Shown piece by piece: positions 1 through 22,910 of a stretch of 22,910 nt of DNA. This DNA comes from a virus: IMG/VR virus record IMGVR_UViG_3300045996_001307, positions 1 to 22,910 of that record; one strand, 5' to 3'. A program made the translations under genes and the position numbers. How positions within the stretch are numbered: position 1 is the stretch's first letter; each line of letters begins with the position of its first letter. Below the pieces are notes generated by a model that ran no database searches, was not told where the DNA came from, and saw nothing but the letters and a program-made list of their open reading frames with translations.

Positions 1-1310
1 TTATGTTCACGCCAGCGGTAACAAGTCCCACCCCGGGCAGCGCATTCTTGATCGCGTTGAACGCAGCCGAGCCGATGCCTTTCCAGTTACGATTCTTGGA
101 GGAGGAGCTCGACTTCGTAAACCAGTTCCCGATCGCCTTCACCCCAGCAGCGATCAGGCCAACTCCGGGTATCGCGTTCTTGATGGCGTTGAAGGCGGCT
201 GAACCGATACCCTTCCAGTTGCGCTGCTTCGACGAGTTATTCGACCGCGTGAACCAGTCGCCGATCTGCTTCACGGCCGCTGCGATAAGACCTACAGCCG
301 GCAAGGCCCGCTTGATGGCATTCCAGGCAAAGGAGCCGATGCCCTTCCAGTTGCGATTCTTCGAGGAGTTGTTCGATCGAGTGAACCAGTCACCGATCTG
401 CTTCACGGCCGCGGCGATGAGGCCCACGGCCGGCAGCGCCCGCTTGATAGCGTTCCACGCGAACGATCCGATCCCCTTCCAGTTGCGATTCTTTGAAGAG
501 GTGTTGGAGCGGTTGAACCAGTCGCCGATCTGCTTCACGGCCGCTGCGATAAGACCTACGGCCGGCAGCGCCCGCTTGATGGCGTTCCAGGCAAAGGAGC
601 CGATGCCCTTCCAGTTGCGATTCTTCGAGGAAGTGTTCGACCGTGTGAACCAGTTCCCGATCTGCTCTACCGCGAACGCTATCAGGCCAGCTCCGGGTAG
701 AGCTCTCTTGATAGCGTTCCAGGCAAAGGAGCCGATCCCCTTCCAGTTGCGATTCTTGGAGGAGCTATTCGACCGTGTGAACCAGTTCCCGATCTGCTCT
801 ACCGCCGCAGCGATAAGACCCACAGCGGGCAGCGCCCTCTTTATGGCGTTCCAGGCGAACGATCCGATGCCTTTCCAGTTACGCCCCTTCGATGAATTGT
901 TGGAGCGGGTGAACCAGTTCCCGATTTGCTCGACGGCGAAGGCTATCAGCCCTGCTCCAGGTAGCGCCCGCTTGATCGCATTCCAGGCAAAGGAGCCGAT
1001 GCCCTTCCAGTTGCGTCCCTTCGAGGAGTTGTTGGAACGGGTGAACCAATCACCGATCGACTTCACCGCGGCCCCGATAAGACCCGCTCCGGGTATCCCG
1101 GCCTTGATCGCGTTCCAGGCAGCAGAGCCTATGTTCTTCCAGCTCAAGCCCTTGGACTTATCCCGAGACTTCGTGAACCACGACTCGATGAATTGTATGA
1201 CCGGACCGATAAAGGGAGTGTTCCTTAGACCCGAGAGGATGGCTTCGATAGCAGCGGAGCCGATGCCCTTCCAGTTCAAGCCCTTGCTCTTGTCCCGGCC
1301 CTGACCGAAC
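1..1310 (-). repeat. 132-bp tandem repeats inside the tape measure gene
   Basis: The anchor TTCCAG (plus-strand reading) recurs at exactly 132-bp spacing at 81, 213, 345, 477, 609, 741, 873, 1005, 1137 and 1269, giving nine full periods, and probably continues past the window edge. Each unit encodes 44 residues with a core like NWKGIGSFAWNAIKRALP followed by a hydrophobic stretch and DWF. The 44 residues equal four 11-residue steps, the spacing known for Trp/Phe repeats in some tape measure proteins. The spacing is exact with no indels; substitutions are scattered. Confidence 0.95.
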
Positions 1311-4300
1311 GCCTGCTCTATGAGCTGGATCAAGGGACCGATAAGCGGCATCTGCCTCATGCCGGCTATTATCATTTCCATGAGACCCTGCCCGAACGGC
1401 CCGAGACCCTTGGGCGGTCCCTTGCCGAGGAGCTCCTGCACCCAGTAGTCGATCGGATCCCACTTGCCGAGAGCCTCATCACCGGGCTGGATGATGTTCT
1501 TGTTAAGCCACTCGAGGAACGGACCGAGAAGCGGCACGTCTGAGAGGCCGGCGATGATGGCGTTGGCCAGCGAGTCGGTATAGTTGTCCCCTGCTTCCTT
1601 GCCCGCCTTCTTCCCTTCCTCCATCGACTTCTTGAACTCGGCCGCGGCCTTCTGGTGGTCGTACTTCCAGACGATGTAGACGAGGAGGCCGATGGCCAGA
1701 GCGCTAAGGGCGATCAGTCCACCCACGCCGGCCATAAGGGCGATCGCACTTGCGATGACCTTCTTGAAGCCGTCGGCGAGCTTGCGCGCCGTGCTCCTTG
1801 AGGTATCCGGCCTGGGCGATACCATCGGACCGCCCGGCCCCGTGGTCGGCCACGCCGTAGGCGTCGGGATCGGGTTGGGCGGAGTGCGGTTTATCAGACG
1901 AAGCCTCGTCAGCCAGGTGAGTAGACGCGGCAGTACGTGGGTTGCGATCGCCGTACCGACTGAGGTGATCGCGCTTATGACGAGACGGCCGCCAAGGAAA
2001 CGGTAGGCACCGTAGATGAGCCCGAGCTTGATGAGCATGTCCGAGAGCTCTTCGTCCGTGAGTTTCTCGATCTTCTTCATAATCGGATCGAGCCAGGCCG
2101 GCGTCCACTTCTGCCACGCATCAGCCGCGTTGTTGATCTTCTCGCGCACCTTGTCGAGCTTCTGGATCACCCAGCCGATCGCACCAGCGATATCGTTCAT
2201 AACCTCGAACCACTCGCCGAGCACAGGCAGGTTATCCCCAACTTCACCCACAAAATCTAGCACCCGGTTGATGAACTCTTTTGAGCCGGGATGGTTGCTT
2301 AGTTTCCCGAGACCTTTGAGCACACGGCCGATGGTGTCCAGCACCTTCTCCGCGAACTCCTCGCCCGCCTTGAAAAAGTCTCTGAGTGAGTTCTGCCCCT
2401 TTTCTGAAGAAGACCAATTCCTGAGATCATTCAGCTTCGGGTTGACGTACTGGAAAAAATCCTTGGCCGCTGGCAGGGATGCCGCGAAGATGTTTATGCC
2501 GGTAAGAACGATATCCGATGCGGCGTTCGCAGCCTGACGAGTCAGGCCCGGGAGCCTGTCCAGGATCTCCTGAAGCAGCTCGAGCTGCTTAGGCTTTGTG
2601 ATGTTCTCCTTGAACCTCTGCCAGGATTCCTCCAGGGCCAGAGCGCTCTCCTCGGCCGCCTCTCCGAGGGCCGGGAACGCCTTGGTCGTAAGATCCATGA
2701 CGTCGATCGCAATGCGAGCGAGGACCTTACGGGCCGGGCGAGAATAGAACTCCCAGTCTTCCCACAGCTTCTTCCACCTCTTGATGAGGTCTTTCTCGAA
2801 TTGGTGTAGCTTCACACCCTCGTCATTGAGGGCATCAGTCAGATCCTTTATGGCCTGCTTCAGATCCTTCTGTGCGTCCTCAACTGCCTGGTGGGCGTCG
2901 CGCATCTGGTTTGCCCGGTCAATCTGCGCCTGGTGCAGGGCGCGGAGTTTGTTTGCGGCGTCCTCTTCGGCGGCAGCGATCAGCTCCGCGCCCTTTTTCC
3001 TTGCCTCCCCTATGCCCTCGTAGCTCTCGGCGACCTTGATGTTTGCTTCTTTAATTGCATTGGCCCTATCCACGCGGGCGCGGTGCCAGTTGCGTTCGGC
3101 TTCGTTGAGCGCCCGCTCCATTTCCTGTACACGTTGGATGCCCTCCCGACGGACCTGGGCGACGTTCTCGTGCTCCTCCTTGACACGCCGCTCGCCCTCG
3201 GCGATTTGCTCATTCCCTTCAGTGATGGTATCGAGGTAATTCTCAAACTCCTCGAGAGAGCGCTCTCGGGCCTCCCGAACATCCTTGACGCCTTCGTTCT
3301 CGGCATTGACGAGGTTTCTTTGAGACTGTATAAGGTTGGCATACATCGCCTGGATCTCGCGAGCGCCCTCTCTGCGAGCTATCCTTACTTCTTGCTCGCG
3401 CTTGCGGACTTCCTCTTGAGCCTCCGCCATGCGCTCGTTTCCTTCTCTGACGGTCTCGACGTAGTTCCTGAATTGCTCCATCGCTTGTCTGTGCGCCTCG
3501 GCGATCGACTTCTCGCCCTCCCTGCGAACCCGCACAACTTCGCGCGCCAATTCAAGCGCTCTTTCCTGGGCCTCTCTAATGGCCTGCGCGCCCTCTCTCT
3601 GGGCCCGGATGACGGCTCTGGTTGCCTCGGCCAGATTTCGCTCGGCTTCTCTTATCCTCTGGGCACCCTCGATCCGAACACGGGTGACGTTGCGAGTCGC
3701 TTCCAGTAGCGCCTTTTCCGCCTCGCGTATCTGACGCGCACCCTCGATCCGAACACGGGTGATGTTGCGCGTCGCTTCCAGTAGCGCCCTCTCTGCCTCA
3801 CGTATCTGCTGGGCGCCTTCAATGCGAGTGCGGGCGAGGTTGCGCTCGGCCTCCAGGATCGCCCTCTGTGCCTCACGTATCCGCCGCGCCCCCTCGATTT
3901 GCGCTTCGAGGTAGGCGCTATATGCCTCGCGAGCCGATTCCTGGGCCTCGAGGACTGCCTCTGCTCCTTCGCGCTGGGCAACGATAATTTCTTGGGCCGT
4001 CTCCGCGACCCGCTCCTGAGCTTCTGCTACGGCCCGGGCTGCGTCCCTTTGGGCTTCCGCGACGGTGCGGACGGATTCGGCGAATCGCCTCTGGGCGTCC
4101 TCAATGCGCCTGGCACCCTCGACCCGCGCCTCAACAATAGCCTCCTCGGCCTCATGCAGCTTCCTCTCGGCATCGAGGATCCTGCGCTGCTGCTCGAGAA
4201 TCGTTTCGTTGTATTCGATACGGGCTTCTGCCGCGGCCTGGGTCGCCTCGGTCCGCGCCTCCTCGGCATCGGCGATAGCCTCGATAGCCTCGCGTTGTTT

Positions 4301-7045
4301 GTCTAAGGCTTCCTGGTAGCGCTCCTGGGCGCTCTGCAAATTCTCGGAACCATTGGCCCTCGCTTCGGCGAGGGCTTGTTCGGCCTTCCTCTGATCGAGT
4401 GCGTTCTGTGCCTGCTCGAGCTGGAGCCTAGCAATATCCTGCTCTGTAACCGCCATGCCCGGCGCGTAGTCGTACTCGCGTGCTATCGCGAGTATCCGCT
4501 GCTGCTCGGCGATTTGCGCTGCGATTTCCGCGCCCTTGAGCCTGGCGTCCTGGAGATTCAGCTCTAGCTGCTCGACCTCGAAAGGCTCCTCGCGCATCGC
4601 CGCATTCAGCTCGCGCTGGGCTTCGGCAACGGAGAGCGTGATGTCTATGAGATTTTCACGCGCTTCAGCCACCTTCTCGGCAGCCTCTATGGCCGCCTCA
4701 TCAGCATCGGCTATGGCGTCCCTGGCGTCGATTATCCGCTTGGCCGCATCGCGCTCAACGTCCGCAAGGTCACGCCTCGCCTCGGCCTCAGACTCGATCG
4801 CATCACGGATCTGCTTGGCTGTATCCTCTCTCGCGTCTGCGAGATCGCGAGCCGCATCAGCCTGCGACTCAAGTGCATCGCGCACCCTCTCGGCTGCTTC
4901 CCGCTGGGTATCCGCAAGGTCTATTACGGCTTCGCGGTGCGCCTCTATCGCATTCTGTACGTTCTCGTGAGCCTCTTGCTGGGCTTCACCGACGGCCTCC
5001 ACGGCCTCCTGATACGACTGCCAGGCGTCCTTGATCTGCTCGGCTGTATCGCGCTGAGCCTCTGCCAGGTCGCGCTCGGCTTCTGCTACATCGCGGATGG
5101 CATCCCGGATATCCTGGGCTACATCGCGGCGCGTCTGGGCTAGGTCGCGTGCCGCCTCGGCTTCGGCTCGGATGGCCTCTTTGATATCCCGGGCCACTTC
5201 ACGCACCGTCTGGGCTAGGTCGCGCTCGGCCTCCCGCTGCGCCTGAATAGCTTCTTGGATATCTTGCGCTACTTCACGCCTCGTCTGGGCCAGATTTCGC
5301 TCGGCTTCGGCCTCAGCTCGTATAGCCTCCTTGACCTGCTGGGCAGCCTCTCGTCTCGCATCGGCGACAGCCTTTATTGCTTCCTTGTATTCCTGCATCG
5401 CTTCACGGTTGTTGCGTGCAGCTTCCGCTTCTGCTTCCTGAACGCCTTTTAGGGCCTCCTGGTAGGACCGCCACGCCTCGGCGTTCTGCTCGGCTACGTC
5501 GCGAGCTGTCTCGCGAAGATTTTCATGTGCCTCAGCAAGCGCCTCTGTAGCTTCTGCGATTCTTTGGCGTACGGCGGCTTGGGTTTCGGCCAATTCACGC
5601 TCGGCAGCCTGCACTTCTTTGGTTGCTTCTGCGACCTGCTCACGCGCTGCCACTTCAGCCTCGGCGATAGCTTCAACAGAATCCTTGTAGGAGGCGTAGG
5701 CTTCCTGAATCTGCTCGGCTACATCGCGCCGGGTTTGCGCAAGTTCTCGCTCGGTTTCGGCAAGCGATTCAAGCGCATCCTGCTCGGCTTGCCGAGCTTC
5801 TATCTTGGCCTGGGCGAGATTCCGCTCGGCCTCCGCTGCGGCGCGGGCGGCATCGGCGACCTGGCGGTTAGCCTGCAAAGTCGTCTCTGCGAGGTCACGT
5901 AGGGACTGCTGGTAGGACTCAATCGCATCTTCGACCCCCGCCCTCGCCTCTTCTCGTGCCTGGTCTATGGCCTCGAGGGACTCCCGGTAGGCTCTCGCAG
6001 CCTCGGCAACAGCCTGATTGGTCGAGCGCTGCGTCTCTTCGACCTGCTCGAGGGCATCACGGTAGCTCCGCTGCGCCGATTCTAGAGAGTTGGTCTCGGA
6101 TGCGACTCTGTTCTGTGCTTCCTCGTGTTCGCTCATGGCGACGATCGAAGGTGCGGCGGCGGCGGCCAGAAGTCCGAATCCTGCGACAGCTCCACCGAGG
6201 GCGCCGACGAGGGTGCCGAACGCTCCGGCGAGCGGCAGAGCACCGGCGGCAGCGGCGACGATCATGGCACGGGTGACGAGCTGAATGCCGGCGGAGACAA
6301 CATTCATCTCGCGCACGAGGCCCGAGCCCGCCGTCTTTGAGGTAGTAAGCCCCTTGGTAAATGATGCGAGTGAGGCGAGGGAGCTGCCGAGATTGACCTT
6401 TGCCTCTACCTCGATATCACCGATCGACGAGCGCAGCTTGGCGGCTTCATTGACTCCCGACTCGCCGCGGACCCGGAGGATGGCGGTGGCGGTCTCTCCA
6501 TCGAAATCTCGGAGCGAAGCTAAAGCGCGGTCGATAGCCGCTTCCACCTGTTCGGATCCGTCGGAATCGAGCCGCGCCTGGAATACAGCGCCCTCTATCT
6601 TGTTCGCTTCCCGGAGAAGTTTGGCAACTTCCCGGTCGAATTGGTCGCCGTCTAGGTCGGCCTCCGCTGATATGCGCATGGCCCCGAGGCGCTGAAGGCG
6701 CCGCCCCAGATCATCGACTTCATCGCGGGCCTCATCGCTCTTGACCTTGGCCTCGATCTCCATGCGCTTGTCGGTAAACTCCTTGCGCAGGTCCTCCAAA
6801 GCATCAAGGTCACCCTTACGTACAGCGAAGCGTATCTCGTTGGCTTTCCCCTTGAAGGCTTTCCGAACCATGTCCTGTGCCGCCGCGATACCGCGCTTAA
6901 GCTCTTCTTCCCTGAAGCGGGCTTCGATCTCAAGGTCCGTACCGTCGACCGCCTCGGCCGCGCGCTTGGTATCACGTAGCTCGCGCTGGAGCTTGTCGAG
7001 TTCGGAGCGAACCCGGAGGATTACCTCTATGTCGCGATCGTTAAT
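1..7045 (-). CDS. Tail tape measure protein, C-terminus beyond the window
   Basis: Sets tail length and is threaded through the tail tube during assembly. The frame is open from 7045 to the left edge, giving at least 2348 residues. Regions seen: charged helical N-terminus (residues 1-250), an Ala/Gly-rich hydrophobic stretch (about 252-306), an Ala/Glu/Arg-rich coiled coil of roughly 1,100 residues (about 319-1430) with 25-residue repeats, a mixed segment with hydrophobic helices (about 1680-1800), and 44-residue Trp-rich repeats from about residue 1915 onward. An in-frame TAA lies at 7057-7055 and no ATG, GTG, TTG or CTG follows until the ATG at 6871. The residues between look fully coding, so I place the start at ATT 7045, with AAGG seven bases upstream. 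Its position after the chaperone pair is the usual one. No lysozyme or peptidase domain is seen in the visible part. Family identity is secure; the start is not. Confidence 0.93.
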   Translation of the reverse strand, partial: MNDRDIEVILRVRSELDKLQRELRDTKRAAEAVDGTDLEIEARFREEELKRGIAAAQDMVRKAFKGKANEIRFAVRKGDLDALEDLRKEFTDKRMEIEAKVKSDEARDEVDDLGRRLQRLGAMRISAEADLDGDQFDREVAKLLREANKIEGAVFQARLDSDGSEQVEAAIDRALASLRDFDGETATAILRVRGESGVNEAAKLRSSIGDIEVEAKVNLGSSLASLASFTKGLTTSKTAGSGLVREMNVVSAGIQLVTRAMIVAAAAGALPLAGAFGTLVGALGGAVAGFGLLAAAAAPSIVAMSEHEEAQNRVASETNSLESAQRSYRDALEQVEETQRSTNQAVAEAARAYRESLEAIDQAREEARAGVEDAIESYQQSLRDLAETTLQANRQVADAARAAAEAERNLAQAKIEARQAEQDALESLAETERELAQTRRDVAEQIQEAYASYKDSVEAIAEAEVAAREQVAEATKEVQAAERELAETQAAVRQRIAEATEALAEAHENLRETARDVAEQNAEAWRSYQEALKGVQEAEAEAARNNREAMQEYKEAIKAVADARREAAQQVKEAIRAEAEAERNLAQTRREVAQDIQEAIQAQREAERDLAQTVREVARDIKEAIRAEAEAARDLAQTRRDVAQDIRDAIRDVAEAERDLAEAQRDTAEQIKDAWQSYQEAVEAVGEAQQEAHENVQNAIEAHREAVIDLADTQREAAERVRDALESQADAARDLADAREDTAKQIRDAIESEAEARRDLADVERDAAKRIIDARDAIADADEAAIEAAEKVAEARENLIDITLSVAEAQRELNAAMREEPFEVEQLELNLQDARLKGAEIAAQIAEQQRILAIAREYDYAPGMAVTEQDIARLQLEQAQNALDQRKAEQALAEARANGSENLQSAQERYQEALDKQREAIEAIADAEEARTEATQAAAEARIEYNETILEQQRRILDAERKLHEAEEAIVEARVEGARRIEDAQRRFAESVRTVAEAQRDAARAVAEAQERVAETAQEIIVAQREGAEAVLEAQESAREAYSAYLEAQIEGARRIREAQRAILEAERNLARTRIEGAQQIREAERALLEATRNITRVRIEGARQIREAEKALLEATRNVTRVRIEGAQRIREAERNLAEATRAVIRAQREGAQAIREAQERALELAREVVRVRREGEKSIAEAHRQAMEQFRNYVETVREGNERMAEAQEEVRKREQEVRIARREGAREIQAMYANLIQSQRNLVNAENEGVKDVREARERSLEEFENYLDTITEGNEQIAEGERRVKEEHENVAQVRREGIQRVQEMERALNEAERNWHRARVDRANAIKEANIKVAESYEGIGEARKKGAELIAAAEEDAANKLRALHQAQIDRANQMRDAHQAVEDAQKDLKQAIKDLTDALNDEGVKLHQFEKDLIKRWKKLWEDWEFYSRPARKVLARIAIDVMDLTTKAFPALGEAAEESALALEESWQRFKENITKPKQLELLQEILDRLPGLTRQAANAASDIVLTGINIFAASLPAAKDFFQYVNPKLNDLRNWSSSEKGQNSLRDFFKAGEEFAEKVLDTIGRVLKGLGKLSNHPGSKEFINRVLDFVGEVGDNLPVLGEWFEVMNDIAGAIGWVIQKLDKVREKINNAADAWQKWTPAWLDPIMKKIEKLTDEELSDMLIKLGLIYGAYRFLGGRLVISAITSVGTAIATHVLPRLLTWLTRLRLINRTPPNPIPTPTAWPTTGPGGPMVSPRPDTSRSTARKLADGFKKVIASAIALMAGVGGLIALSALAIGLLVYIVWKYDHQKAAAEFKKSMEEGKKAGKEAGDNYTDSLANAIIAGLSDVPLLGPFLEWLNKNIIQPGDEALGKWDPIDYWVQELLGKGPPKGLGPFGQGLMEMIIAGMRQMPLIGPLIQLIEQAFGQGRDKSKGLNWKGIGSAAIEAILSGLRNTPFIGPVIQFIESWFTKSRDKSKGLSWKNIGSAAWNAIKAGIPGAGLIGAAVKSIGDWFTRSNNSSKGRNWKGIGSFAWNAIKRALPGAGLIAFAVEQIGNWFTRSNNSSKGRNWKGIGSFAWNAIKRALPAVGLIAAAVEQIGNWFTRSNSSSKNRNWKGIGSFAWNAIKRALPGAGLIAFAVEQIGNWFTRSNTSSKNRNWKGIGSFAWNAIKRALPAVGLIAAAVKQIGDWFNRSNTSSKNRNWKGIGSFAWNAIKRALPAVGLIAAAVKQIGDWFTRSNNSSKNRNWKGIGSFAWNAIKRALPAVGLIAAAVKQIGDWFTRSNNSSKQRNWKGIGSAAFNAIKNAIPGVGLIAAGVKAIGNWFTKSSSSSKNRNWKGIGSAAFNAIKNALPGVGLVTAGVNI
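3550..5900 (-). repeat. 75-bp coiled-coil repeats in the tape measure gene
   Basis: Degenerate tandem units of 75 bp (25 residues) encode Ala/Glu/Arg-rich helix with cores like ARDLAQTRRDVAQDIRDAI and ATRNVTRVRIEGA. Exact spacing can be read at 5133, 5208 and 5283 (GTCTGGGC on the plus strand) and at 3666 and 3741 (CCCTCGATCCGAACACGGGT). The outer limits given are approximate because units decay gradually. Confidence 0.8.
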
Positions 7046-7576: not shown

Positions 7577-8211
7577 TCACCGGAGGACTCTCTCAGGGCC
7601 TCCTCGTAGGCTCGCTGTGACCCTATTGACTCACCACCGGGGTCGATGTCCTTCTTGGCCTTCTTCTCGTCATCCTCGTCAGGATCGGGGATGTCGTTGA
7701 TGTCCTGGATCTCCTGGTTGATCTGGTCTCCCTGATACTGCGGGAGGGTCCTGATCCCCTCGGGGTTGAGTGGCCGCATCTCCCTGACCGCCTCGACCTT
7801 ATCCAGGTTCTTGATGAGCGGGATGCCAGACTTGGAAGACTTCTTGATGGAGCCATCCGGGTTGAGGTGAAACTCTGGCGGGACCGCCCATATGATGTTG
7901 CCCATCTCATCGCGCTTCTCGCGCGTGAGCTCCCAATGCTCGATCGAACGGGAGAAGTCGAAGATCCTGATGCGCTCGGCGTGGAACTCGACGTCCTGCT
8001 GCCGGCCCTTCTTCCTCGCGATCTTCTGCTCGGTCAGGATGCGGGTACGAGCCCGGACGTCATCCTCCGTCATCTCGCGAAGCCACACGCTCTCCTCACG
8101 GTCGGCCTCGCCAGCGAAATTCTTACACTTGATCTTCCTCTCGTAGAGGACTTCCCCTACGTCGACCTGCTCTGCGACGGCCCTCTCCGCGTCAATGTAC
8201 TCCTGCGTCAC
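7546..8211 (-). CDS. Tail assembly chaperone, N-terminal product (G-like)
   Basis: A 221-residue acidic, soluble protein between the major tail protein and tape measure genes, the normal place for the chaperone that keeps tape measure protein soluble and recruits tail tube subunits. There is no diagnostic motif; the call rests on gene order and on the overlapping -1 frame. The C-terminal 60 residues are Asp/Glu/Lys rich (DPDEDDEKKAKKDIDPGGES), a likely linker in the fusion product. The frame stays open to a GTG at 8229, but the GTG at 8211 is preceded by GGAGG with a five-base spacer and is preferred. A strong hairpin at 8237-8272 separates it from the major tail gene. Confidence 0.8.
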   Translation of the reverse strand: MTQEYIDAERAVAEQVDVGEVLYERKIKCKNFAGEADREESVWLREMTEDDVRARTRILTEQKIARKKGRQQDVEFHAERIRIFDFSRSIEHWELTREKRDEMGNIIWAVPPEFHLNPDGSIKKSSKSGIPLIKNLDKVEAVREMRPLNPEGIRTLPQYQGDQINQEIQDINDIPDPDEDDEKKAKKDIDPGGESIGSQRAYEEALRESSGEEEALVGDPI

Positions 8212-8236: not shown

Positions 8237-8272
8237 ACGTAACTTCTGGCGGAAGTATGCCAGAAGTTACGT
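8237..8272 (-). terminator. 14-bp perfect hairpin after the major tail protein gene
   Basis: Arms ACGTAACTTCTGGC (8237-8250) and GCCAGAAGTTACGT (8259-8272) match perfectly around an 8-base loop in the 89-base gap between the major tail protein and chaperone genes. No U-tract follows on the minus strand, so it may be a leaky U-less terminator, an RNA-processing site or a 3'-end stabilising stem that raises major tail protein mRNA over downstream mRNA. Confidence 0.55.
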
Positions 8273-8300: not shown

Positions 8301-9503
8301 TTAGGCGGGCTTGACGTAGGTGAGTCCGTTGTTCGTGTTCACGACGTAGATGTCCAGGAACGCTCCCGCCGGAGTGAGCACACCGTTGGAGGAGATGGCC
8401 ACCTGGGTCAGCACGTTGGCCGCGTCGATATTCAGCGGTGCCTCAGTGTACTGGAGGCGCTTGAAGTCGAGGCCAAACTCCTCGTAGGCAGTCGTGGCGT
8501 TGATGGTCGACTGGAGCGCCTTGCCCTTGCCGACCAGCGTAAGCTGCACGGAGTCGGGGTTATTCTGAAGCGCCCTGCGGTAGTGCGCCTCGAGGGACTG
8601 GGCCGCCGAGAAGCCAACACCGAGACCCACGTTACCCGGACGGATGGCCGAGGTCTCCAGAGAGCCTAGCTGGAAGTTGTCGGTGTTGAAGTTGTTCGAG
8701 TAGGTCATGTTGAAGTTGGTCAGGATGTGATCGGCCACGGCCGCACCGTTCACCCCGAGCTTCGCCGAGACCTCCGAGAACGACCAGAGCTCGCTCGCGT
8801 CTCTGGTTATCGCCGGAGCGACACCGGCAAGGTCTGTCAGGCGTTTGGCTACAAGACCTGCGGAGCCCAGCAAGTAGTTGTTCGGCTCGATGCTAAGACC
8901 GAGTTCGTTGAGATAGCCCCAACCGTAGCGGTCTACCAGATCAGCCGTACCGAGGCCCGGCTGGTTGACGTCCTTGATGATCTTCCACAGCGTCGCCGGC
9001 GTCGGCAGAAGTCCTGACGTTGCGGGCGAGTAGGTGTGCTTGTAGATCGCATCGCGGATGGTGAAGACCGCGGTGCCCGAGGTTGCGGCGATGGTCGAGC
9101 CAACAGCGCCGGCGTCCGAAGGTACAGTGGTGCCGCCGGTGCCGGCGGTCGTGACCTCGAAGACCTTGGTCGTCGGCGAGGTGTGGATGATAAGCTGCCC
9201 GAGAGTGTATGTCTGGCCCGAAGACCAGACAGTTCCTACCCTCGTAGTGACGGGGTTGCCCATGGCCATCGAGAGGAAGTACGGCAGAGAGCCTGGCCGC
9301 GCGCCGAAGTTGGCCGGGCCGGCGTAGGTCCTGGCGCCACGCTTCAGGGCCTCTGGGAAACGTCCGCCGAGCGTAGCCTCGTGCGTCATCTCCGCGATCT
9401 GTGCCGCCATCTCCATCGAGGTGACGGGTGGGAAGGAGGTCGGCGAAGCCGCCTCCACCGTGTCGTTCATCAGGGCCATACCGAAGCCGTCGATTTTGCC
9501 CAT
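8301..9503 (-). CDS. Major tail (tail tube) protein with an inserted beta domain
   Basis: A 400-residue protein between the neck genes and the chaperone pair, which is the slot of the subunit that polymerises into the tail tube. The N-terminus (1-87) and C-terminus (153-400) look like one interrupted domain. Residues about 88-152 form a separate module, VWSSGQTYTLGQL, then FEVTTAGTGGTTVP, then FTIRD. This resembles the small carbohydrate-binding-like (CBM5/12-type) repeats often attached to phage virion proteins. ATG 9503 overlaps the stop of the preceding gene (TAATG), with GGAGG nine bases upstream. A hairpin follows the gene. Position gives the tail tube call; the insert's function is inferred from pattern only. 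Confidence 0.85.
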   Translation of the reverse strand: MGKIDGFGMALMNDTVEAASPTSFPPVTSMEMAAQIAEMTHEATLGGRFPEALKRGARTYAGPANFGARPGSLPYFLSMAMGNPVTTRVGTVWSSGQTYTLGQLIIHTSPTTKVFEVTTAGTGGTTVPSDAGAVGSTIAATSGTAVFTIRDAIYKHTYSPATSGLLPTPATLWKIIKDVNQPGLGTADLVDRYGWGYLNELGLSIEPNNYLLGSAGLVAKRLTDLAGVAPAITRDASELWSFSEVSAKLGVNGAAVADHILTNFNMTYSNNFNTDNFQLGSLETSAIRPGNVGLGVGFSAAQSLEAHYRRALQNNPDSVQLTLVGKGKALQSTINATTAYEEFGLDFKRLQYTEAPLNIDAANVLTQVAISSNGVLTPAGAFLDIYVVNTNNGLTYVKPA

Positions 9504-12557: not shown

Positions 12558-14006
12558 TTAGGCAAACCGGCCCTTGACGAAGGACAGGGGTCGCTTGACC
12601 CCGAGGCCGATCCGCTCCTCGGCCAGGACCAGCACGGCGTTACGGACCACGTAGTCTTCGTGCTGCTCGGCGAAGCGTATGGTGGTCGTCTCCCGGTCGT
12701 AGAGGTCCGCGCCGAGGGCGAAGGCTCCGAGCAGGAAGTTGTTGACCGGCATGGAGTTGGAGACGACGGCCGGGATCTTCCAGATGTTCGGCTCGCGTCC
12801 GGGGTTGATGTCGAGGTAGAGGTAGCGGCCCTGCGAGTCCTTCAGAAGCTCGATGGCCTCCCAGTCGATCGGGTTGACTACGATGCCGTTGGGCGGGTAG
12901 TCGGCGATCAGGCTCTTGGTGAGCGCCTTACGAACCCAGTCGAGCTGCTGGATACCAGCACCCGTCATGGTCCCCTGGTTCTGGATCAGGGTGTTGTTCA
13001 TAAAGCCGAGCAAGTTACCGCCGGTGCCCGGGCCCTGGAGGATCTGCCACTCCTCGGTAAGAGCTAGGCCGTAGACCAGCTCCGTGTCGATGAGGTTCCT
13101 CATCACGGGAACATCGTCGAGCGTCTGCCTATGGGCCGGCGTCCAGTGAGCCAGCGTGATGCAGTTGACGATATCCTCGGTGAAGGCGAGGTTCATCTGC
13201 GGCTTGCGCGCACCGTGCGCGGTCGCCCCGAACTCGCCGGCCGTGAGGAAGTCACCCACAGCGAAACCAGCCGAGAGGTTGGTTGACATGGTGATGACGT
13301 TGGTGGTGTTGTTGATCGTGAGGATCGTCTTGGACTCGGTAGCCGCACCCGTCGCCTGACGAAGCGTGACGACCTGGCCAACCATGAACCCGGCCGTGGA
13401 CTCGACCGTCACGGCGGCCTGGGCTGACGCGGCCGTGGCTGTGAGCTTCGTCGAGAGGTTATAGAAACCAGCGAGACGCATGATCTCGATTTGCGGACTC
13501 TCGACGGGGACGACGTTTAGCAGGTCGCGCATGATGAATGTGCGCTGCGGGTCCATCGTGATTCCCGGGAGCTTCTGCGGCTCGATCAGTCCGCCGGCGG
13601 CGCCGATGCCCGTGGGCTCTGATGTCACCCAGCGCTGAGAGAAGAACGGCTCGACGTCCACGGGGTCGGTGTTGAAGGCGTTACGGGAACGCTTCTCCTT
13701 GTACTCATCGGAGCTGAGGAACTGGTTGCCCCTGCTCGCGCGGTGCATCCGCTGGCGCGGGTCGCCGCCGGCCGGCGCCGAACGCAGGCCCTCCTCGGAG
13801 TTGAGCTTCTCCTGGATCTCGCTCATGGCCTCGCCCATCGAAGCCATCCGCTCTTCGATCGACTCGATCTTATTCGAGGTCTGGGTGGTCGTGCCGCCGA
13901 GACGCTGGATATCTTCGCGCTGCTGCTCCAGCGTCCTGCCGAACTCTGCGTTCAGCTTCTTGAACTCCTCATTGATGGACGCAACCTGCTCTGCTACTGG
14001 GGTCAT
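12558..14006 (-). CDS. Major capsid protein, HK97 fold, with E-loop-region insertion
   Basis: A 482-residue HK97-type capsid subunit. Residues 1-75 are coiled coil (VASINEEFKKLNAEFGRTLE, heptads continuing), equivalent to the HK97 delta scaffold removed by the protease. The core matches HK97 gp5 closely in places: KPQMNLAFTEDIVNCITLAH; DDVPVMRNLIDTELVYGLAL then EE; GTGGNLLGF; a C-terminus with AEERIGLGVKRPLSFVKGRF. Between residues about 188 and 264 lies a beta-rich insert (AAVTVESTAGFMVGQVVTL, then TNVITMSTNLSAGFAVGDFL) where HK97 has its short E-loop. The start shares one base with the protease stop (TAATG). Confidence 0.96.
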   Translation of the reverse strand: MTPVAEQVASINEEFKKLNAEFGRTLEQQREDIQRLGGTTTQTSNKIESIEERMASMGEAMSEIQEKLNSEEGLRSAPAGGDPRQRMHRASRGNQFLSSDEYKEKRSRNAFNTDPVDVEPFFSQRWVTSEPTGIGAAGGLIEPQKLPGITMDPQRTFIMRDLLNVVPVESPQIEIMRLAGFYNLSTKLTATAASAQAAVTVESTAGFMVGQVVTLRQATGAATESKTILTINNTTNVITMSTNLSAGFAVGDFLTAGEFGATAHGARKPQMNLAFTEDIVNCITLAHWTPAHRQTLDDVPVMRNLIDTELVYGLALTEEWQILQGPGTGGNLLGFMNNTLIQNQGTMTGAGIQQLDWVRKALTKSLIADYPPNGIVVNPIDWEAIELLKDSQGRYLYLDINPGREPNIWKIPAVVSNSMPVNNFLLGAFALGADLYDRETTTIRFAEQHEDYVVRNAVLVLAEERIGLGVKRPLSFVKGRFA

Positions 14007-15004
14007 TAGCTTCGTTCCCTCCTCATACGGGTTTCCAACGTCATCAGTGACAAACCTGTGTGCACTTCTTCGAGCTGGGCCGCCAGCTCCTCCTCATCTA
14101 ACTCATCCTCTTCGTCCTCTTCCTCCGACTCGGGAGTTTCCTCTGGCTCGGTAGTGTCTTCCTCCTCGGCCGGGGTCTCCGTCTCTTCCTCTTCTTCCGC
14201 CGCGATCGCCTGATCCAGCTCGTCGAGGACCTCCCTGGCCTTCGTGACGAGCTCGCGAGGAATGGAGGTGATCCGAGAGATGTAGGCATCGCGCTTGTTC
14301 TCGGTCATCGAGCGGAGTGCGAGTGCGGCCTGGTGAGCCTCAGAAGCCCTATCGACCAGCGCATTTTCCTCAGCCGGGAACGTGACTAGTGAGCCCTCGA
14401 AGAGGGTCATCTTGACGACCTTGCGAATCGCATCACCAAAGAACCAGTCGATCATGTCCGGTGGCTCGGCGGTGTCGCGCTCCCTACCCTCGACCCACTC
14501 GTACTCGATCTCATCAGCGATAAAGCCGATCGAGAATGAGTCGACCTCGCCGGCCTCGACCTGATCGAGGTAGTCAACGCGCTTCTGATTCCAGTTGCCG
14601 TTGCGGTCCTTGAGCCTGACTGGAGTCGAACCCCAGATCCCGTAATCGTCGGGCTTGAGCTGCTCAGGGAGACCGAGGACCTCCTCGGAGAGATGCTGCC
14701 AGAGCATCTTGATCTTGGATGAGCGCTTGTCGGAACCCTCAAGAGTCCGCGGCCCACGCTCCTCGATGGTCTCATCAGCCGAGCCGGCCACGAGGATCTC
14801 GTCATACCAGTTGGTCGTGCCGAAGACAGCCCAATAGCCATCGACGTATGCAAGAGATCCGTCGGAGGCGCCCTTATCGGCGTCCCGAACTGTGCGGACC
14901 TCCAGGTTCTCGGCTAGAGGAACAGTCCGGCGGTGGATAATGTCCCCACCTCGTTGCTCGAGGGAGTCAGCTTCTTTTACGCTACGCTTCGCAAGAGTGT
15001 CCAT
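14006..15004 (-). CDS. Prohead maturation protease, HK97/U35 family
   Basis: A 332-residue serine protease that cleaves the capsid scaffold domain inside the procapsid. Expected catalytic features are present in order: LWQHLSEEVLG with His104, DSFSIGF with Ser158, and LFEGSLVTFPAEENALV with Glu204. Residues about 253-310 form a very acidic low-complexity stretch, followed by a short C-terminal helix (LEEVHTGLSLMTLETRMRRE). It starts at ATG 15004, with only AAGG one base upstream, so initiation is weak or uses other signals. It is the first late gene after the divergent HTH gene, so it needs its own promoter or read-through. Confidence 0.94.
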   Translation of the reverse strand: MDTLAKRSVKEADSLEQRGGDIIHRRTVPLAENLEVRTVRDADKGASDGSLAYVDGYWAVFGTTNWYDEILVAGSADETIEERGPRTLEGSDKRSSKIKMLWQHLSEEVLGLPEQLKPDDYGIWGSTPVRLKDRNGNWNQKRVDYLDQVEAGEVDSFSIGFIADEIEYEWVEGRERDTAEPPDMIDWFFGDAIRKVVKMTLFEGSLVTFPAEENALVDRASEAHQAALALRSMTENKRDAYISRITSIPRELVTKAREVLDELDQAIAAEEEEETETPAEEEDTTEPEETPESEEEDEEDELDEEELAAQLEEVHTGLSLMTLETRMRRERS

Positions 15005-15088
15005 GCCTTATCAGAATGCCCATATGAAAATAAAACTTCTAGCATTTTGGCAGCATTTGTTTTTTTCTTGGGGTAGAATGCTTCTTCG
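15005..15088. promoter_or_regulatory. AT-rich divergent intergenic region
   Basis: Distinctly AT-rich next to its GC-rich surroundings, and the only divergent gene junction in the window. On the plus strand TAGAAT (15074-15079) ends nine bases before the HTH start. On the minus strand TATTTT (15032-15027) is a possible -10 element for the protease/capsid block. No good -35 is seen for either at standard spacing. Confidence 0.5.
15074..15088 (+). promoter_or_regulatory. Putative -10 box for the HTH gene
   Basis: TAGAAT at 15074-15079 is followed by nine bases and then the ATG, with no ribosome site between. Transcription starting about seven bases after the box would give an almost leaderless mRNA. 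The -35 is unclear; TTGGCA (15047-15052) is 21 bases away, too far for a standard spacer. Confidence 0.5.
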
Positions 15089-18921: not shown

Positions 18922-20336
18922 GCTCTCCCCATCTGCAAGCCCTTCTTGCGGCGCTTGCGAGCTCTCTTGGCCTTCTTGGTCAGCGAGTAGGCCAGGGCGC
19001 CGGCGACGAACTCATCCGGCGGATGGCCGCCGTAGTAGACCTGATCGTTCGTGAGCCTGGACATCACCCGGTACAGCCTCGGGATCATCGGCAAGGTGAT
19101 CTCATCCCCAGCCTGACATGCACCTACGTACCCGGAGAACATAGAGGCAATCAGCATACGCTGGGAGAACTGTATGCCTTCGGAATCTAGTGACGGGTCG
19201 ATAAAGGACCCGATCACATCGCCTATGCCGGTTTCATCGTGGCGCGCCTTCCCGCCGTAGTTACGGACCCGCTCGTTATAGCGGCCGATCACGAACGGCC
19301 AGTCGATCCGGCGCATGTAGGCCCACGCGGCGAGCTGGTCGGGCCCGGTATCGGACTCTCTGAAGGTGTGTAGACAGGTGTTATGGAGCTTCTTGCCCCA
19401 GTCAGCGCCATGCACGTAGCTCCCCGGAGCCTCCGGTGGGATGACCTCGTACTCGAAGCCCATCTCATCCAGGAACTCGCCCCAGTCGGGGTCAAACAGA
19501 ATCTCGAGGTGCTCGGCGTTGAAGATCCGCCCTTCTGGGTTGGGCTCCTGGAGCTCCACTTCGACGCGCCAGGTCTCCGGTGTCATGGTCTGCCTCTTCA
19601 GCGCGATCATCTCATCGGTCAGCCAGCCGCCGTTGTCGACGTGGTTGCACTTGTAGCAGACCTCATGGACTGGCCAGCCCATCGTATCGGCCATGTCGAT
19701 CGCATCGGTCATGGTCCCGGTCTCGTGCTGGTGCGTGGAGCCGGCGATCGCGCCAGCCTCCTCACCCTGCGGCTGGCCGAGGATCGACTCGAAGAGATCG
19801 AAGTTCATCTCGTCGATCTCGTCACAGATCACCTTGTTGGGGTGCCCGCCTCTTGCGTGAGTCTGCGAGGCGTTGAGCGCCCGGGCCACACCGCCGCCCT
19901 TGAAGCGCGCCTCGGTCGTGGTCCCCTGTCGAATCAGGTGCTTGGGCGCCCGGTGGTGATCCCACATGAGCCCCTTCATCTTGGGGTGCGTGCCGGTCAG
20001 ATACTTCTGTACGTTCTTGGACTGCTCACCGGAGCCGCCGAATATGTTGATCTCATAGCCTTTGAGCGCCGCAAGTAGTGAGCCGGTGACCCCGAAGGAG
20101 AGAGACTTGCCGGCCAGTCCCCGCGAGCCCTTGACGATGAAGACCGGGTGGCGGCCGAAGTAGCCATCGGCGACGATCTTGAACGGTGCGGTGTGCTCGG
20201 GGGAGCATGGACGCAGGGCGAAATTCAGCCCGAAAAAATATTGGATCCACCAATGCAGCCAGTGGTCGTCCTCTGGTGGCGTCTCAGAGAGGGTCCGAAT
20301 GATTTTCGTCTTCTGTGCGCCTTTGAGCTTCTTCAA
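18918..20336 (-). CDS. terL: Terminase large subunit
   Basis: Packaging motor ATPase and headful or cos nuclease, about 472 residues from the chosen start. The P-loop KGSRGLAGKS (residues 69-78) is a variant Walker A; Walker B with catalytic Glu is VICDEID (around 169-175); the nuclease domain shows GADWGKK (Asp312), HDETGIGDVIGSF (Asp367, Asp373) and DEFVAGALAYS near the end. The frame extends to 20651, but that part overlaps the small terminase in a different frame and reads as Arg/Ser noise. TTG 20336 is the first plausible start, with GAGGGAG eleven bases upstream and a 53-base overlap with terS. The start is uncertain. Confidence 0.93.
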   Translation of the reverse strand: MKKLKGAQKTKIIRTLSETPPEDDHWLHWWIQYFFGLNFALRPCSPEHTAPFKIVADGYFGRHPVFIVKGSRGLAGKSLSFGVTGSLLAALKGYEINIFGGSGEQSKNVQKYLTGTHPKMKGLMWDHHRAPKHLIRQGTTTEARFKGGGVARALNASQTHARGGHPNKVICDEIDEMNFDLFESILGQPQGEEAGAIAGSTHQHETGTMTDAIDMADTMGWPVHEVCYKCNHVDNGGWLTDEMIALKRQTMTPETWRVEVELQEPNPEGRIFNAEHLEILFDPDWGEFLDEMGFEYEVIPPEAPGSYVHGADWGKKLHNTCLHTFRESDTGPDQLAAWAYMRRIDWPFVIGRYNERVRNYGGKARHDETGIGDVIGSFIDPSLDSEGIQFSQRMLIASMFSGYVGACQAGDEITLPMIPRLYRVMSRLTNDQVYYGGHPPDEFVAGALAYSLTKKAKRARKRRKKGLQMGRA

Positions 20337-20913
20337 AAAATTCGATCGCTCCCTCGGGCGAGAGTTCCTCCAGCGCGTCAGCCACGGCGTCTTCGTCGGC
20401 ATCGGTCCACCTCCCCTCATTGTGCGCCTGAGAAAGCCTCTCCTGCTCCAGAAGCATCTTGTAGACCTCGAGCGAGAACTTGGACATCTGTACGGCATGA
20501 GCCATCGAATAATTCTCGGCCGAGAGCTCCCTGTTGAAAATATCCTGAGCCTTCTGGTAGGCCGCCTCACCCAGATCGAGGATCCTCTTGAACTGCTTCT
20601 CCTTCTCAGCGGCAATAGTCGTCCACCTGGAGGTAATTCCCCGGAGCTCACCCTCTACCCTGGCCCTGGCCTTCGCATCATCCTTCGCCAGAGCCCGCTC
20701 GCGCCAGTCATAGCGCTCCGTCCACCCTCTGAAGTAGGGTTGGACATTCACATCCTGGCAAGTGCCCTCCGGCTGCCCCGTTGCCTCATCCTTATAGAGC
20801 CGAAACGCCGCTATGTAGGTCCGCTCGAGCGGTGGAATGTCCGAATAGATCACGAATGCCCGGAATGCCTTCTCCGGCTCCTCGTTTAACCTGTCCCATG
20901 GGTTCTTTGCCAT
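20284..20913 (-). CDS. terS: Probable terminase small subunit
   Basis: A 209-residue protein directly before the large terminase. Features suit a small terminase: N-terminal region with YTWRERALAKDD-like helix (actual WTERYDWRERALAKDDAKAR at residues 64-83), long central helices (AEKEKQFKRILDLGEAAYQK; MSKFSLEVYKMLLEQERLS) for oligomerisation, and an acidic C-terminus that could contact TerL. Small terminases vary strongly, so the call rests mainly on position. ATG 20913 has no Shine-Dalgarno but has a promoter immediately upstream. Confidence 0.82.
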   Translation of the reverse strand: MAKNPWDRLNEEPEKAFRAFVIYSDIPPLERTYIAAFRLYKDEATGQPEGTCQDVNVQPYFRGWTERYDWRERALAKDDAKARARVEGELRGITSRWTTIAAEKEKQFKRILDLGEAAYQKAQDIFNRELSAENYSMAHAVQMSKFSLEVYKMLLEQERLSQAHNEGRWTDADEDAVADALEELSPEGAIEFFEEAQRRTEDENHSDPL

Positions 20914-20948
20914 GGATCTATCTTACCTACGGCTTGCGAAAACAGCAA
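20914..20948 (-). promoter_or_regulatory. Putative leaderless promoter of terS
   Basis: TTGCTG (20948-20943), a 17-base spacer, TAAGAT (20925-20920) and six bases before ATG 20913. Transcription would start at or next to the A of the ATG. No Shine-Dalgarno is present, in contrast with the operon's internal genes. This is the best-spaced sigma70-type candidate in the window. Confidence 0.6.
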
Positions 20949-21223
20949 CAGAGGTGTAGAGTGGCCTCCAGTACACGCGCCCGGTCCATCCTCCTTTCCC
21001 TTTCCCCACCTATCACCCCGTTGGACCGGGCTTCGCTACGTTTAGAGGGGTCTTCAGGGCTACTGGCGGGCAACTCCGGGGTCAGTGGCGCCACGCAAGG
21101 GGGCAGCCCGGGGGGTTTCAGGCGGTTAGCGGGACCCTCGCGGGCGAATATGTAGGGTTAGTGGAATAAAACCGCGGGATCCCGCCCACTAATGTAGGGT
21201 TACAGGAACGATCAGGGCTCGAG
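20949..21223. other. Noncoding region upstream of terS, cos/operator candidate
   Basis: About 275 bases with no supported gene but much symmetry. A 10-bp inverted repeat GCCCGGTCCA/TGGACCGGGC (20979-20988 and 21022-21031) encloses a pyrimidine-rich loop on the plus strand. GTGGCGCCAC (21085-21094) is a perfect palindrome. A composite element sits at 21150-21202. Cohesive-end sites commonly lie just upstream of terS, and CAGGCGGTTA (21119-21128) resembles the overhangs of some actinophages, but this is speculative. Confidence 0.4.
21150..21202. repeat. Direct repeats flanking nested dyads
   Basis: ATGTAGGGTTA occurs at 21150-21160 and 21192-21202. Between them TTAGTGG (21158-21164) pairs with CCACTAA (21186-21192), enclosing the perfect palindrome GCGGGATCCCGC (21174-21185). 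On the minus strand the palindrome is followed by GGTTTTATT, so it could act as the terminator of the upstream peptidase gene; the repeats suggest a protein-binding site instead or as well. Confidence 0.6.
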
Positions 21224-22090
21224 TTAGATGCCCGGAAGCGCTACGAGTGCATCGAGACTGAGGGCGAAAGGCGCGCGGGGATACCACAGGGCCGCGGTCT
21301 TCTTATCGCGGATGGAGCGGGAATCGTTGAAGCCCACGGCGTCGGCCGGGTCGAGCACGAACTGGACGGGGATCGGGTAGTGCATGATCGAGTTCTTATC
21401 GTAGACCGAAAAGTTCGTCAGAAGCGCGGAATACTTCCTGAAGACCTGGCGCTCCACATCCTGAGCCGTCCAGAAGTTGGGCGCCCCCATGTAGTAATCC
21501 AGCACCCGCTCCCGGTTCCAGCTTATCTCCGCCTCGGGGTGGGCCTGCTCGTGGCCGAAGTCGAGCATGTGCCCGAACTCATGGACCACGGTGCGGCGCC
21601 ACTCATCCAGATCATCTACGACGTCCGCATCCAGCAGCCAGCCTAGCTGCATGGTCGGCTCGTCGTCAGGGATGGCCAGATTGTCGGTGCCGAGGTAGGA
21701 CCAGGACCCGCCGGGCTCGAACGTGATGCGGATGTCTGCCATGCTCCTGTCAGTCGTGACGTTGAAGACGAGGTTGGCCTGCTTCAGCCAGTTGTTGCCG
21801 AGGTCTATCACCCGATCGCGGGCCCACTGTGGACCATCCATAAAGTAGAAGTTGATCGTCCGCCCAACCTGCCACTTCTTCGAGGTGAACATCACGAGAC
21901 CTTCAGCGTGGATCTCTTCGGCCGAGAAGGACGGAATGAAATCCCGGAGTCGCTCCATCGCGTCGCCCATGAGCGAAGCATCAGGGGCATTGCCGGGCCG
22001 CTCGAGGCGAGCGCGCTCTGAAGCCTCCGGCTGCCGGGGTGAAGGAACGATCCTGTCTGCACATGCGCGGATTATCTGTTCTTTAGCCAT
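21224..22090 (-). CDS. Astacin-like zinc metallopeptidase (metzincin)
   Basis: A 288-residue protein with the metzincin zinc site HEFGHMLDFGHEQ (His170, Glu171, His174, His180) and the Met-turn SIMHYP (Met236), the combination typical of astacin/matrixin families; GSWSYLGTD at 129-137 and TMQLGWL before the helix fit related peptidases. No signal peptide or membrane segment, so release would be by lysis or virion incorporation. The N-terminal 60 residues may be a propeptide or targeting region. It lies between another metallopeptidase and terS. Substrate is unknown; host surface or exopolymer proteins and structural-protein processing are options. Confidence 0.9.
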   Translation of the reverse strand: MAKEQIIRACADRIVPSPRQPEASERARLERPGNAPDASLMGDAMERLRDFIPSFSAEEIHAEGLVMFTSKKWQVGRTINFYFMDGPQWARDRVIDLGNNWLKQANLVFNVTTDRSMADIRITFEPGGSWSYLGTDNLAIPDDEPTMQLGWLLDADVVDDLDEWRRTVVHEFGHMLDFGHEQAHPEAEISWNRERVLDYYMGAPNFWTAQDVERQVFRKYSALLTNFSVYDKNSIMHYPIPVQFVLDPADAVGFNDSRSIRDKKTAALWYPRAPFALSLDALVALPGI

Positions 22091-22127
22091 GCCGGGAAGT
22101 CTAACAGAGGTCGGATCACAGCCGCAA
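22091..22127 (-). promoter_or_regulatory. Putative leaderless promoter of the astacin-like gene
   Basis: TTGCGG (22127-22122), an 18-base spacer, TAGACT (22103-22098), then seven bases to ATG 22090 with no Shine-Dalgarno. The -35 overlaps the end of the upstream peptidase gene. Same architecture as the terS promoter. Confidence 0.5.
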
Positions 22128-22625
22128 CGAATCGAACAGCGCCGCCGTGTCGGGCTCCTTGCGCATCAGCAGGTCGTAAGCGGCGGGCAACTGGCGCCCA
22201 AAGACCCAGGTACGGAACGCCTCGGCGAAGCGCTCGTAAGGATCGGTGCCGGCGTAGCCCGTGACGTCGATGTAAGGGATCCACATTCCAGGTGCCGGGC
22301 TGGTTGGGTGGGTGAACATCCATTCGTGCAGAACATGGCCGAGCTCGTGGACAATTACCCAGGGCTCCTCCGGGATAGGCAGGACCACGGTCGGCCGGCG
22401 CTTGTCGCGAGGTAGATGCTCCTGGTGCATGAGCTCGGCGACATGGGCGAGCTGATCGTAGCCGATGCCGTGGACACTCATCTCGTGGTGATGCAGGTTG
22501 ACGAAGAGCGGGGAGACCTCAAGCAGATAGTCAGGGCGCCGCGCCAGTCCAGAAAGGTTCGGGGGAAGAAGAGACGCAGCGTGACGGATCGCCGGGTGCT
22601 GGCGCCTCGAAGGAGATCGGTTCAT
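22116..22625 (-). CDS. Gluzincin-like zinc metallopeptidase
   Basis: A 169-residue protein with HELGHVLHE (His93, Glu94, His97) and a downstream YERFAEAFRTW segment (Glu131/Glu135) that can supply the third zinc ligand, as in HExxH...E gluzincin-type peptidases. No Met-turn, so it is unrelated to the neighbouring astacin-like enzyme. No signal peptide. The frame stays open to 22901 but the upstream part is Arg/Ser/Gly-rich noise; ATG 22625 is preferred, with a TACACT box six bases upstream and only AGGA abutting the ATG. Substrate unknown. Confidence 0.8.
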   Translation of the reverse strand: MNRSPSRRQHPAIRHAASLLPPNLSGLARRPDYLLEVSPLFVNLHHHEMSVHGIGYDQLAHVAELMHQEHLPRDKRRPTVVLPIPEEPWVIVHELGHVLHEWMFTHPTSPAPGMWIPYIDVTGYAGTDPYERFAEAFRTWVFGRQLPAAYDLLMRKEPDTAALFDSLRL

Positions 22626-22637
22626 TCCTGAAGTGTA
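22626..22637 (-). promoter_or_regulatory. Putative -10 box of the gluzincin-like gene
   Basis: TACACT (22637-22632) lies six bases before ATG 22625, inside GCTACACT. The same octamer occurs again at 22740-22733. No convincing -35 is seen at standard spacing. Fits the leaderless pattern of the neighbouring genes. Confidence 0.4.
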
Positions 22638-22910
22638 GCGGAAGAGAAGCCCGGGGACCGAACGGGATATTCGCCGCAACCCCCACCCCCGGGAATGAGG
22701 ACGGCTCCGGTGCACCACCGTTCCGTGAGGGTAGTGTAGCAGATGGAGCCGTGACGAAAATCTGGAGCGAAAATACGTCGCGTTTTTTGAGACGGGGGGC
22801 AGGCCCTCTGCACACTCCCGGCGCCTCGCTCCGCCCCACTCCCCCGGCCAGGTACTAGCACCAGGCTTAGCACCAAGGCTAGGCTTCGAGCAGTACCTCA
22901 AACCTAGTAC
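22638..22910. other. Noncoding right edge with short repeats
   Basis: About 270 bases without a supported gene. GTACTAG (22852-22858) and CTAGTAC (22904-22910) form a 7-bp inverted repeat, and AGCACCAGGCT (22857-22867) is echoed by AGCACCAAGGCT (22869-22880). A second GCTACACT -10-like box lies at 22740-22733. The repeat cluster continues to the window edge and cannot be delimited. Confidence 0.4.

Follow-up and report, generated by a model that had tools for sequence, protein, structure and literature searches.

Leaderless initiation as the best reading of TANNNT boxes at Shine-Dalgarno-poor starts in an uncultured tailed phage

How are genes initiated that begin without a usable Shine-Dalgarno (SD) sequence, in a phage whose other genes carry strong ones? 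The question is raised by IMG/VR virus record IMGVR_UViG_3300045996_001307, which we analyzed over its complete length of 22,910 bases (61% GC; referred to here as the window) and which is part of a tailed-phage genome whose structural genes all lie on the minus strand. The original prediction had described a family of leaderless promoters, in which TAAGAT, TAGACT, and TACACT precede the start codons of the terminase small subunit gene (terS) and of two peptidase-like open reading frames (ORFs), pept1 and pept2, by 6, 7, and 6 bases, and TAGAAT precedes that of a helix-turn-helix (HTH) gene by 9 bases. Exact positions confirm the four hexamers with their spacings, the last of them at 15074-15079(+), outside the region to which the family had been assigned. 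The best reading, to which we give a probability of roughly 0.7, is that transcription starts at the ATG and that initiation is leaderless, with the genes downstream being SD led.

RESULTS

TANNNT boxes and the strength of SD sequences

We expressed SD strength as the pairing energy (ΔG) with the 3′ end of the 16S rRNA, in kcal/mol. The starts of pept1 (-1.7), pept2 (-3.4), and terS (-4.1) are among the weakest of the phage, and the AGGA of pept2 abuts its ATG, so that it is unusable as an SD. The SD-poor starts as a group lie between -1.7 and -5.0, and most coupled genes between -9 and -20. The proposed contrast between starts without a usable SD and strongly SD-led coupled genes thus holds for terS and both peptidases (-1.7 to -4.1), but the HTH ORF, with a weak -6.8 contributed by a distant GGGG, is borderline. 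Counted from the first T of TANNNT, the start codon follows after 12 (terS), 13 (pept1), 12 (pept2), and 15 (HTH ORF) nucleotides (nt). The terS start is firm, given that its TAAGAT box opens with an in-frame stop (TAA) 12 nt before the ATG, which makes a start further upstream impossible, and that codon usage gives a positive signal from the first block on. The TTGC-type -35 elements that had been noted at 17 to 18 bases in two of the genes are indeed present at terS and pept1; these TTGC-type boxes (TTGCTG-17 and TTGCGG-18) keep only the TTG of TTGACA, and no -35-like box was seen for pept2 or the HTH ORF.

The statistics are based on 34 curated starts from the window and its extension (see below), 6 of which have an SD energy weaker than -6; both the start set and this cutoff were picked by us, making the P values guides and not strict probabilities. 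TANNNT at 6 to 7 nt occurs at 4 of the 6 SD-poor starts and at none of the 28 others (Fisher P = 3e-4), and the frequency of 4 in 6 corresponds to P values of 1e-7 to 1e-5, the latter at the intergenic TANNNT rate of 0.0144 per position. For the window only, the count is 3 of 5 SD-poor starts (P = 7e-6 at the genome rate and 2e-4 at the intergenic rate). If all 34 starts are taken regardless of their SD, P is 2e-4 at the genome rate and 0.016 at the intergenic rate. The pattern of TTGC, TANNNT, and ATG is by itself only mildly unusual (2 seen versus 0.165 expected). As a control we used nine reference phages with codon-model gene calling, which is imperfect, recovering only two of the four TANNNT starts of the present phage. 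Here, TANNNT at 6 to 7 nt was seen 5 times versus 1.4 expected in three actinophages, 3 versus 1.8 in P23-45, and 1 versus 1.8 in five proteobacterial phages; these counts point the same way but are suggestive only.

Further cases in an extension of the genome

Contig G001, which has 28,826 bases and was read as L020 and L021, matches window positions 13080-1 at 99.93% and adds 15.7 kb past the window's first base. This extension had been out of sight when the original prediction was made and is the best independent test of the leaderless pattern at hand. The motif search over the rest of the genome that had been suggested turned up a further case there, namely, a 107-amino-acid (aa) ORF at L021:8085 (MAIDVGETAE...), which is the first gene past a 50-bp gap, lacks a usable SD, and has a TACACT box 7 nt before its ATG (13 nt from the first T). 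Judged by its sequence, it is an independent case of the leaderless geometry outside the window.

Two other gaps of the extension have this geometry before a tiny ORF. In one, TACAAT lies 6 nt before an ATG-TAG start-stop at L021:5488-5493, followed by a good SD for an 835-aa gene at 5527. In the other, TAGAAT lies 7 nt before the ATG of a 7-codon ORF at L021:12841-12864 (MSTRGIC and a stop), whose stop overlaps the start of an ORF at 12858. In both gaps the gene starts elsewhere than at the ATG of the predicted start site, showing that the geometry predicts where the RNA starts and is no proof of a leaderless gene. The start-stop and the 7-codon ORF ahead of SD-led genes could possibly serve as leaderless leader ORFs coupled to them.

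Upstream boxes of at least two types

When aligned on their -10 boxes, the promoters of the prohead protease and of the three gaps beyond the window share a repeated box (TAGAAG, TAGAAA, TAGAAG, and TGGAAG), each copy being followed by TTTT and separated from the -10 box by exactly 17 nt; TAGAAG keeps three of the six positions of TTGACA. With up to two mismatches, TAGAARTTTTAT has only three copies in ∼38.6 kb on both strands, all of them intergenic, on the coding strand, and 35 to 37 nt before an ATG, which is where transcription starting at the ATG requires a -35 box to be. A looser copy, TGGAAGTTTTTC, precedes L021:12841. The full pattern, T[AG]GAA[AG]-N16-18-TANNNT-N5-8-ATG, was seen 3 times versus 0.03 expected, a ratio that overstates the evidence, given that the pattern was modeled on these very sites. 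Of the proposed consistent promoter class, the shared geometry of -10 box and ATG stands, but by their sequences the promoters are of at least two upstream kinds, TTGC (terS and pept1) and TAGAAR/TGGAAG (the protease and the three promoters beyond the window).

The TAGAAR/TGGAAG box may mark late transcription. A bolder idea, which we hold only tentatively and well short of even odds, is a private late-promoter class, made up of TAGAARTTTTAT with a 17-nt spacer to TANNNT at 35 to 37 nt before an ATG, which would be recognized by a host polymerase modified by the phage or by a sigma factor of the phage itself. Its RNA would systematically start on AUG, sometimes that of a leaderless gene and sometimes that of a start-stop or 7-codon leader ORF before an SD-led gene. 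A scan for TAGAAR-type promoters returned the present phage (L130) and mostly AT-rich chance matches, and the type was not repeated in any GC-rich contig examined; 25 distant protease relatives had no such promoter either. The exact motif TAAGATAGATCCATG was rejected as a link to other viral contigs: it occurs in 17, but only the near-identical L001 is similar in DNA, and among the others L007 alone has a faint portal match (25%) and none has a match to terS or terL. For promoter comparison, L022 (35% portal identity), a phage contig of 46% GC, was too distant. If confirmed, the TAGAAR group would be a late-promoter signature able to link contigs of the phage lineage.

The protease promoter and the HTH ORF have an 84-bp divergent intergenic stretch in common. 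This ORF, flanked on both sides by minus-strand genes, is itself on the plus strand and, as an opposite-strand gene, needs its own promoter. Its product, MGENRGKGRMPEDIFEKILAEYRQQEIPLKAISQKYGYSVGCISRKARERGLKRR, reads as a short helix-turn-helix protein, for which phages, viral contigs, and solved structures yielded no clear relative. The protease in turn needs its own promoter if the upstream transcript stops short of it, and candidate boxes for both genes can be read in the shared stretch (Table 1).

TABLE 1 Genes and candidate promoter elements (window coordinates unless a contig is given)
Feature	Position	Strand	Remarks
terS, terminase small subunit	20284..20913	-	phrog_6299, E 2.8e-6; no usable SD, ΔG -4.1
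terS -10 box TAAGAT	20920..20925	-	6 nt before ATG 20913
terS -35-like TTGCTG	20943..20948	-	Spacer 17
pept1, astacin-like metallopeptidase	21224..22090	-	Pfam Astacin 7.5e-4, under curated cutoff; start codon uncertain
pept1 -10 box TAGACT	22098..22103	-	7 nt before ATG 22090
pept1 -35-like TTGCGG	22122..22127	-	Spacer 18; inside end of pept2 ORF
pept2 ORF	22116..22625	-	HELGH zinc-site-like motif; start codon uncertain; weak codon signal over first ∼30 codons
pept2 -10 box TACACT	22632..22637	-	6 nt before ATG 22625
Prohead protease (Peptidase_S78)	14006..15004	-	No usable SD, ΔG -3.4; first gene past opposite-strand HTH ORF
Protease candidate -10 CATTCT	15013..15018	-	A2 and T6 kept; spacer 17; 8 nt before ATG 15004
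Protease -35-like TAGAAG, in TAGAAGTTTTAT	15036..15041	-	37 nt before ATG 15004
HTH-like ORF, 55 aa	15089..15256	+	Within structural operon, opposite strand
HTH ORF -10 box TAGAAT	15074..15079	+	9 nt before ATG 15089
TAGAARTTTTAT copy 1	15041-15030	-	Upstream of prohead protease
TAGAARTTTTAT copy 2	L021:5453-5464		G001 19953
TAGAARTTTTAT copy 3	L021:8049-8060		G001 22549

Alternative readings of the starts

Several points weigh against leaderless initiation from these boxes. The HTH spacing of 9 sits at the long end, the -10 candidate of the protease is CATTCT and not TANNNT, and a scan for sigma-70 promoters that required 9 of 12 matches missed all of those in the window and found one in the extension. 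Two promoters of the extension drive leadered genes despite an ATG at the predicted start site (that of ATG-TAG and that of MSTRGIC). The near-identical contigs (99.8 to 99.9%), among them L001, which matches window 22572-17078 at 99.8%, supply no independent conservation, and a search for a closer relative found none. Finally, the codon signal is clearly positive only ∼50 codons into pept1 and ∼30 codons into pept2, so that the proposed peptidase ATGs may be wrong.

This late codon signal favors the view that only terS, the protease, and L021:8085 are leaderless, with pept1 starting downstream at ATG 21970 or 21958 and pept2 at ATG 22481, and with their TANNNT hexamers being either -10 boxes of short-leader transcripts or chance matches. 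We consider this improbable, as the alternative ATGs are also without an evident SD, the annotated N termini are plausible protein sequence, and two chance TANNNT matches at 6 to 7 nt are unlikely. Less probable still are leadered genes, transcribed from well upstream (for terS within the 310-nt gap and for the peptidases further right) and started in the SD-independent manner known for leadered mRNAs in bacteria: the intergenic TANNNT density of three times the genome average (0.0144 versus 0.0041 to 0.0057) and the long gap upstream of terS with its 17-nt direct repeat would fit fortuitous AT-rich hexamers, but the position-specific excess holds at the intergenic rate (4 of 6; P = 1e-5), the -35-like boxes sit where a start at the ATG predicts them, and the phage's other genes have strong SDs. 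Leaderless initiation remains the best reading, with backing outside the window from the TACACT-7-ATG gene and from -35-like boxes 35 to 37 nt before ATGs. The start codons of both peptidases are insecure.

Gene content, neighboring features, and host

The minus strand encodes the two peptidase-like ORFs, terS, a presumed large terminase (terL), a portal protein, the prohead protease, an HK97-type capsid protein, tail proteins, and a very long tape-measure ORF. A search with the Pfam TerL profile gave no match, and the large terminase is assigned by its position between terS and the portal gene. No Rfam match was obtained. The two HExxH-type metallopeptidase-like genes adjoining terS, 21224-22090(-) with HEFGHMLDFGH in the astacin-like product and 22116-22625(-), are unusual cargo at this place. 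Upstream of pept2, GCTACACT occurs twice (22632-22642 and 22733-22743, 101 bp apart), and the distal copy is maybe another -10 box. The 310-bp gap upstream of terS contains a 17-nt direct repeat, ATGTAGGGTTA(GT/CA)GGAA, at 21150-21166 and 21192-21208 (42 bp apart), which could be a terminase or regulator site. Two small SD-led ORFs of 54 and 58 aa, at 16443-16279(-) and 16089-15913(-), overlap their neighbors, occupying what look like gaps after the portal gene. A perfect 13-bp inverted repeat, CGTAACTTCTGGC / GCCAGAAGTTACG, occupies 8238-8271(-), in the gap that separates the gene ending at 8301 from the next one, whose start near 8211 it shortly precedes. In the tape-measure-like protein of 2,644 aa (window 2-6871(-), continuing in L020:6210-14144), EAERDLAQ-type repeats form long runs, and there is also a tandem NWKGIGSFAWNAIKRALP repeat.

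The promoters had also been taken to narrow the host to groups with abundant leaderless transcription. They are compatible with Actinobacteriota, and an actinobacterial host is plausible, but the argument is weak, since TA-led leaderless genes occur in several phyla (PMC3160421) and the protein matches point to different hosts. The best matches of the major capsid protein (MCP) and portal are marine gammaproteobacterial phages (30 to 36% identity), with many actinophages at lower identity, and one tail protein matches only Microbacterium phages (∼24%). Scans of bacterial genomes with the portal and the 835-aa protein found no relative and no prophage. A guess of a Thermoleophilia host, from Ig-like repeats in the 835-aa protein, was supported by no search and was set aside.

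DISCUSSION

In the leaderless reading, host-type promoters, recognized by the primary sigma factor, would place the end of TANNNT 6 to 7 nt before the ATG (9 at the HTH ORF and 8 at the protease), and transcription would start at, or within ∼2 bases of, the A of the ATG, giving an mRNA without a leader. The ribosome would then start on the 5′-terminal AUG without an SD sequence, and the distal genes of each operon would be translated via strong SDs and overlapping stops and starts. This would provide a concrete transcription map for an uncultured phage, in which terS, the protease-capsid operon, the HTH gene on the other strand, and three transcripts lying past the tail genes each have a predicted promoter. 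Gene callers relying on SDs may also misplace the starts of such genes.

Leaderless transcripts are also made from the middle and late promoters of Thermus phage P23-45. As in the present phage, these promoters depend strongly on the -10 region (PMC7403470). They differ in having an extended -10 (TGN), while no TGN stands directly before the boxes of terS, the HTH ORF, the protease, or L021:8085, and the present promoters have an upstream box at 17 nt in common.

In Cluster O mycobacteriophages (Corndog and relatives), leaderless SigA-type promoters have been predicted, and Corndog 53, a predicted DNA-binding protein, is encoded by an opposite-strand gene in the structural operon whose promoter +1 is predicted at the start codon (PMC4351075). 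The HTH ORF with its TAGAAT resembles this arrangement, an opposite-strand gene in a structural operon with a -10 box at its start codon, in organization only, DNA binding being putative. In contrast to Cluster O, the protease and putative late promoters have TAGAAR in place of a TTGACA-like -35. The HTH ORF and terL had no match in the phage collection, and all MCP and portal matches were below 60% identity, with no Cluster O phage among the matches listed.

Another parallel is chromosomal. TANNNT ∼12 bp upstream of the start is an established mark of leaderless bacterial genes (PMC3160421, PMC3898074, PMC12340547). TA-led leaderless genes account for ∼19% of the genes of Actinobacteria and 39% of those of Deinococcus-Thermus; Acidobacteria, delta-Proteobacteria, Aquificae, and other phyla have them too, at lower shares (Zheng 2011, PMC3160421). 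In Mycobacterium tuberculosis, TANNNT stands before 73% of the primary starts that have been mapped, with no -35 consensus found (Cortes 2013, PMC3898074), and experiments in Deinococcus showed that an ORF-adjacent box drives leaderless mRNAs (Life Sci Alliance 2025, PMC12340547). Many of these chromosomal genes have mapped 5′ ends, whereas the present phage is read from its sequence alone. Genes of Actinobacteria and Deinococcus-Thermus share with those described here a first T ∼12 nt from the start, the missing SD, degenerate middle bases of the box in a high-GC genome, and a mixture with strong-SD genes. The pattern in this phage is a mildly informative instance of a kind already known from actinobacteria and their phages and involves no new mechanism.
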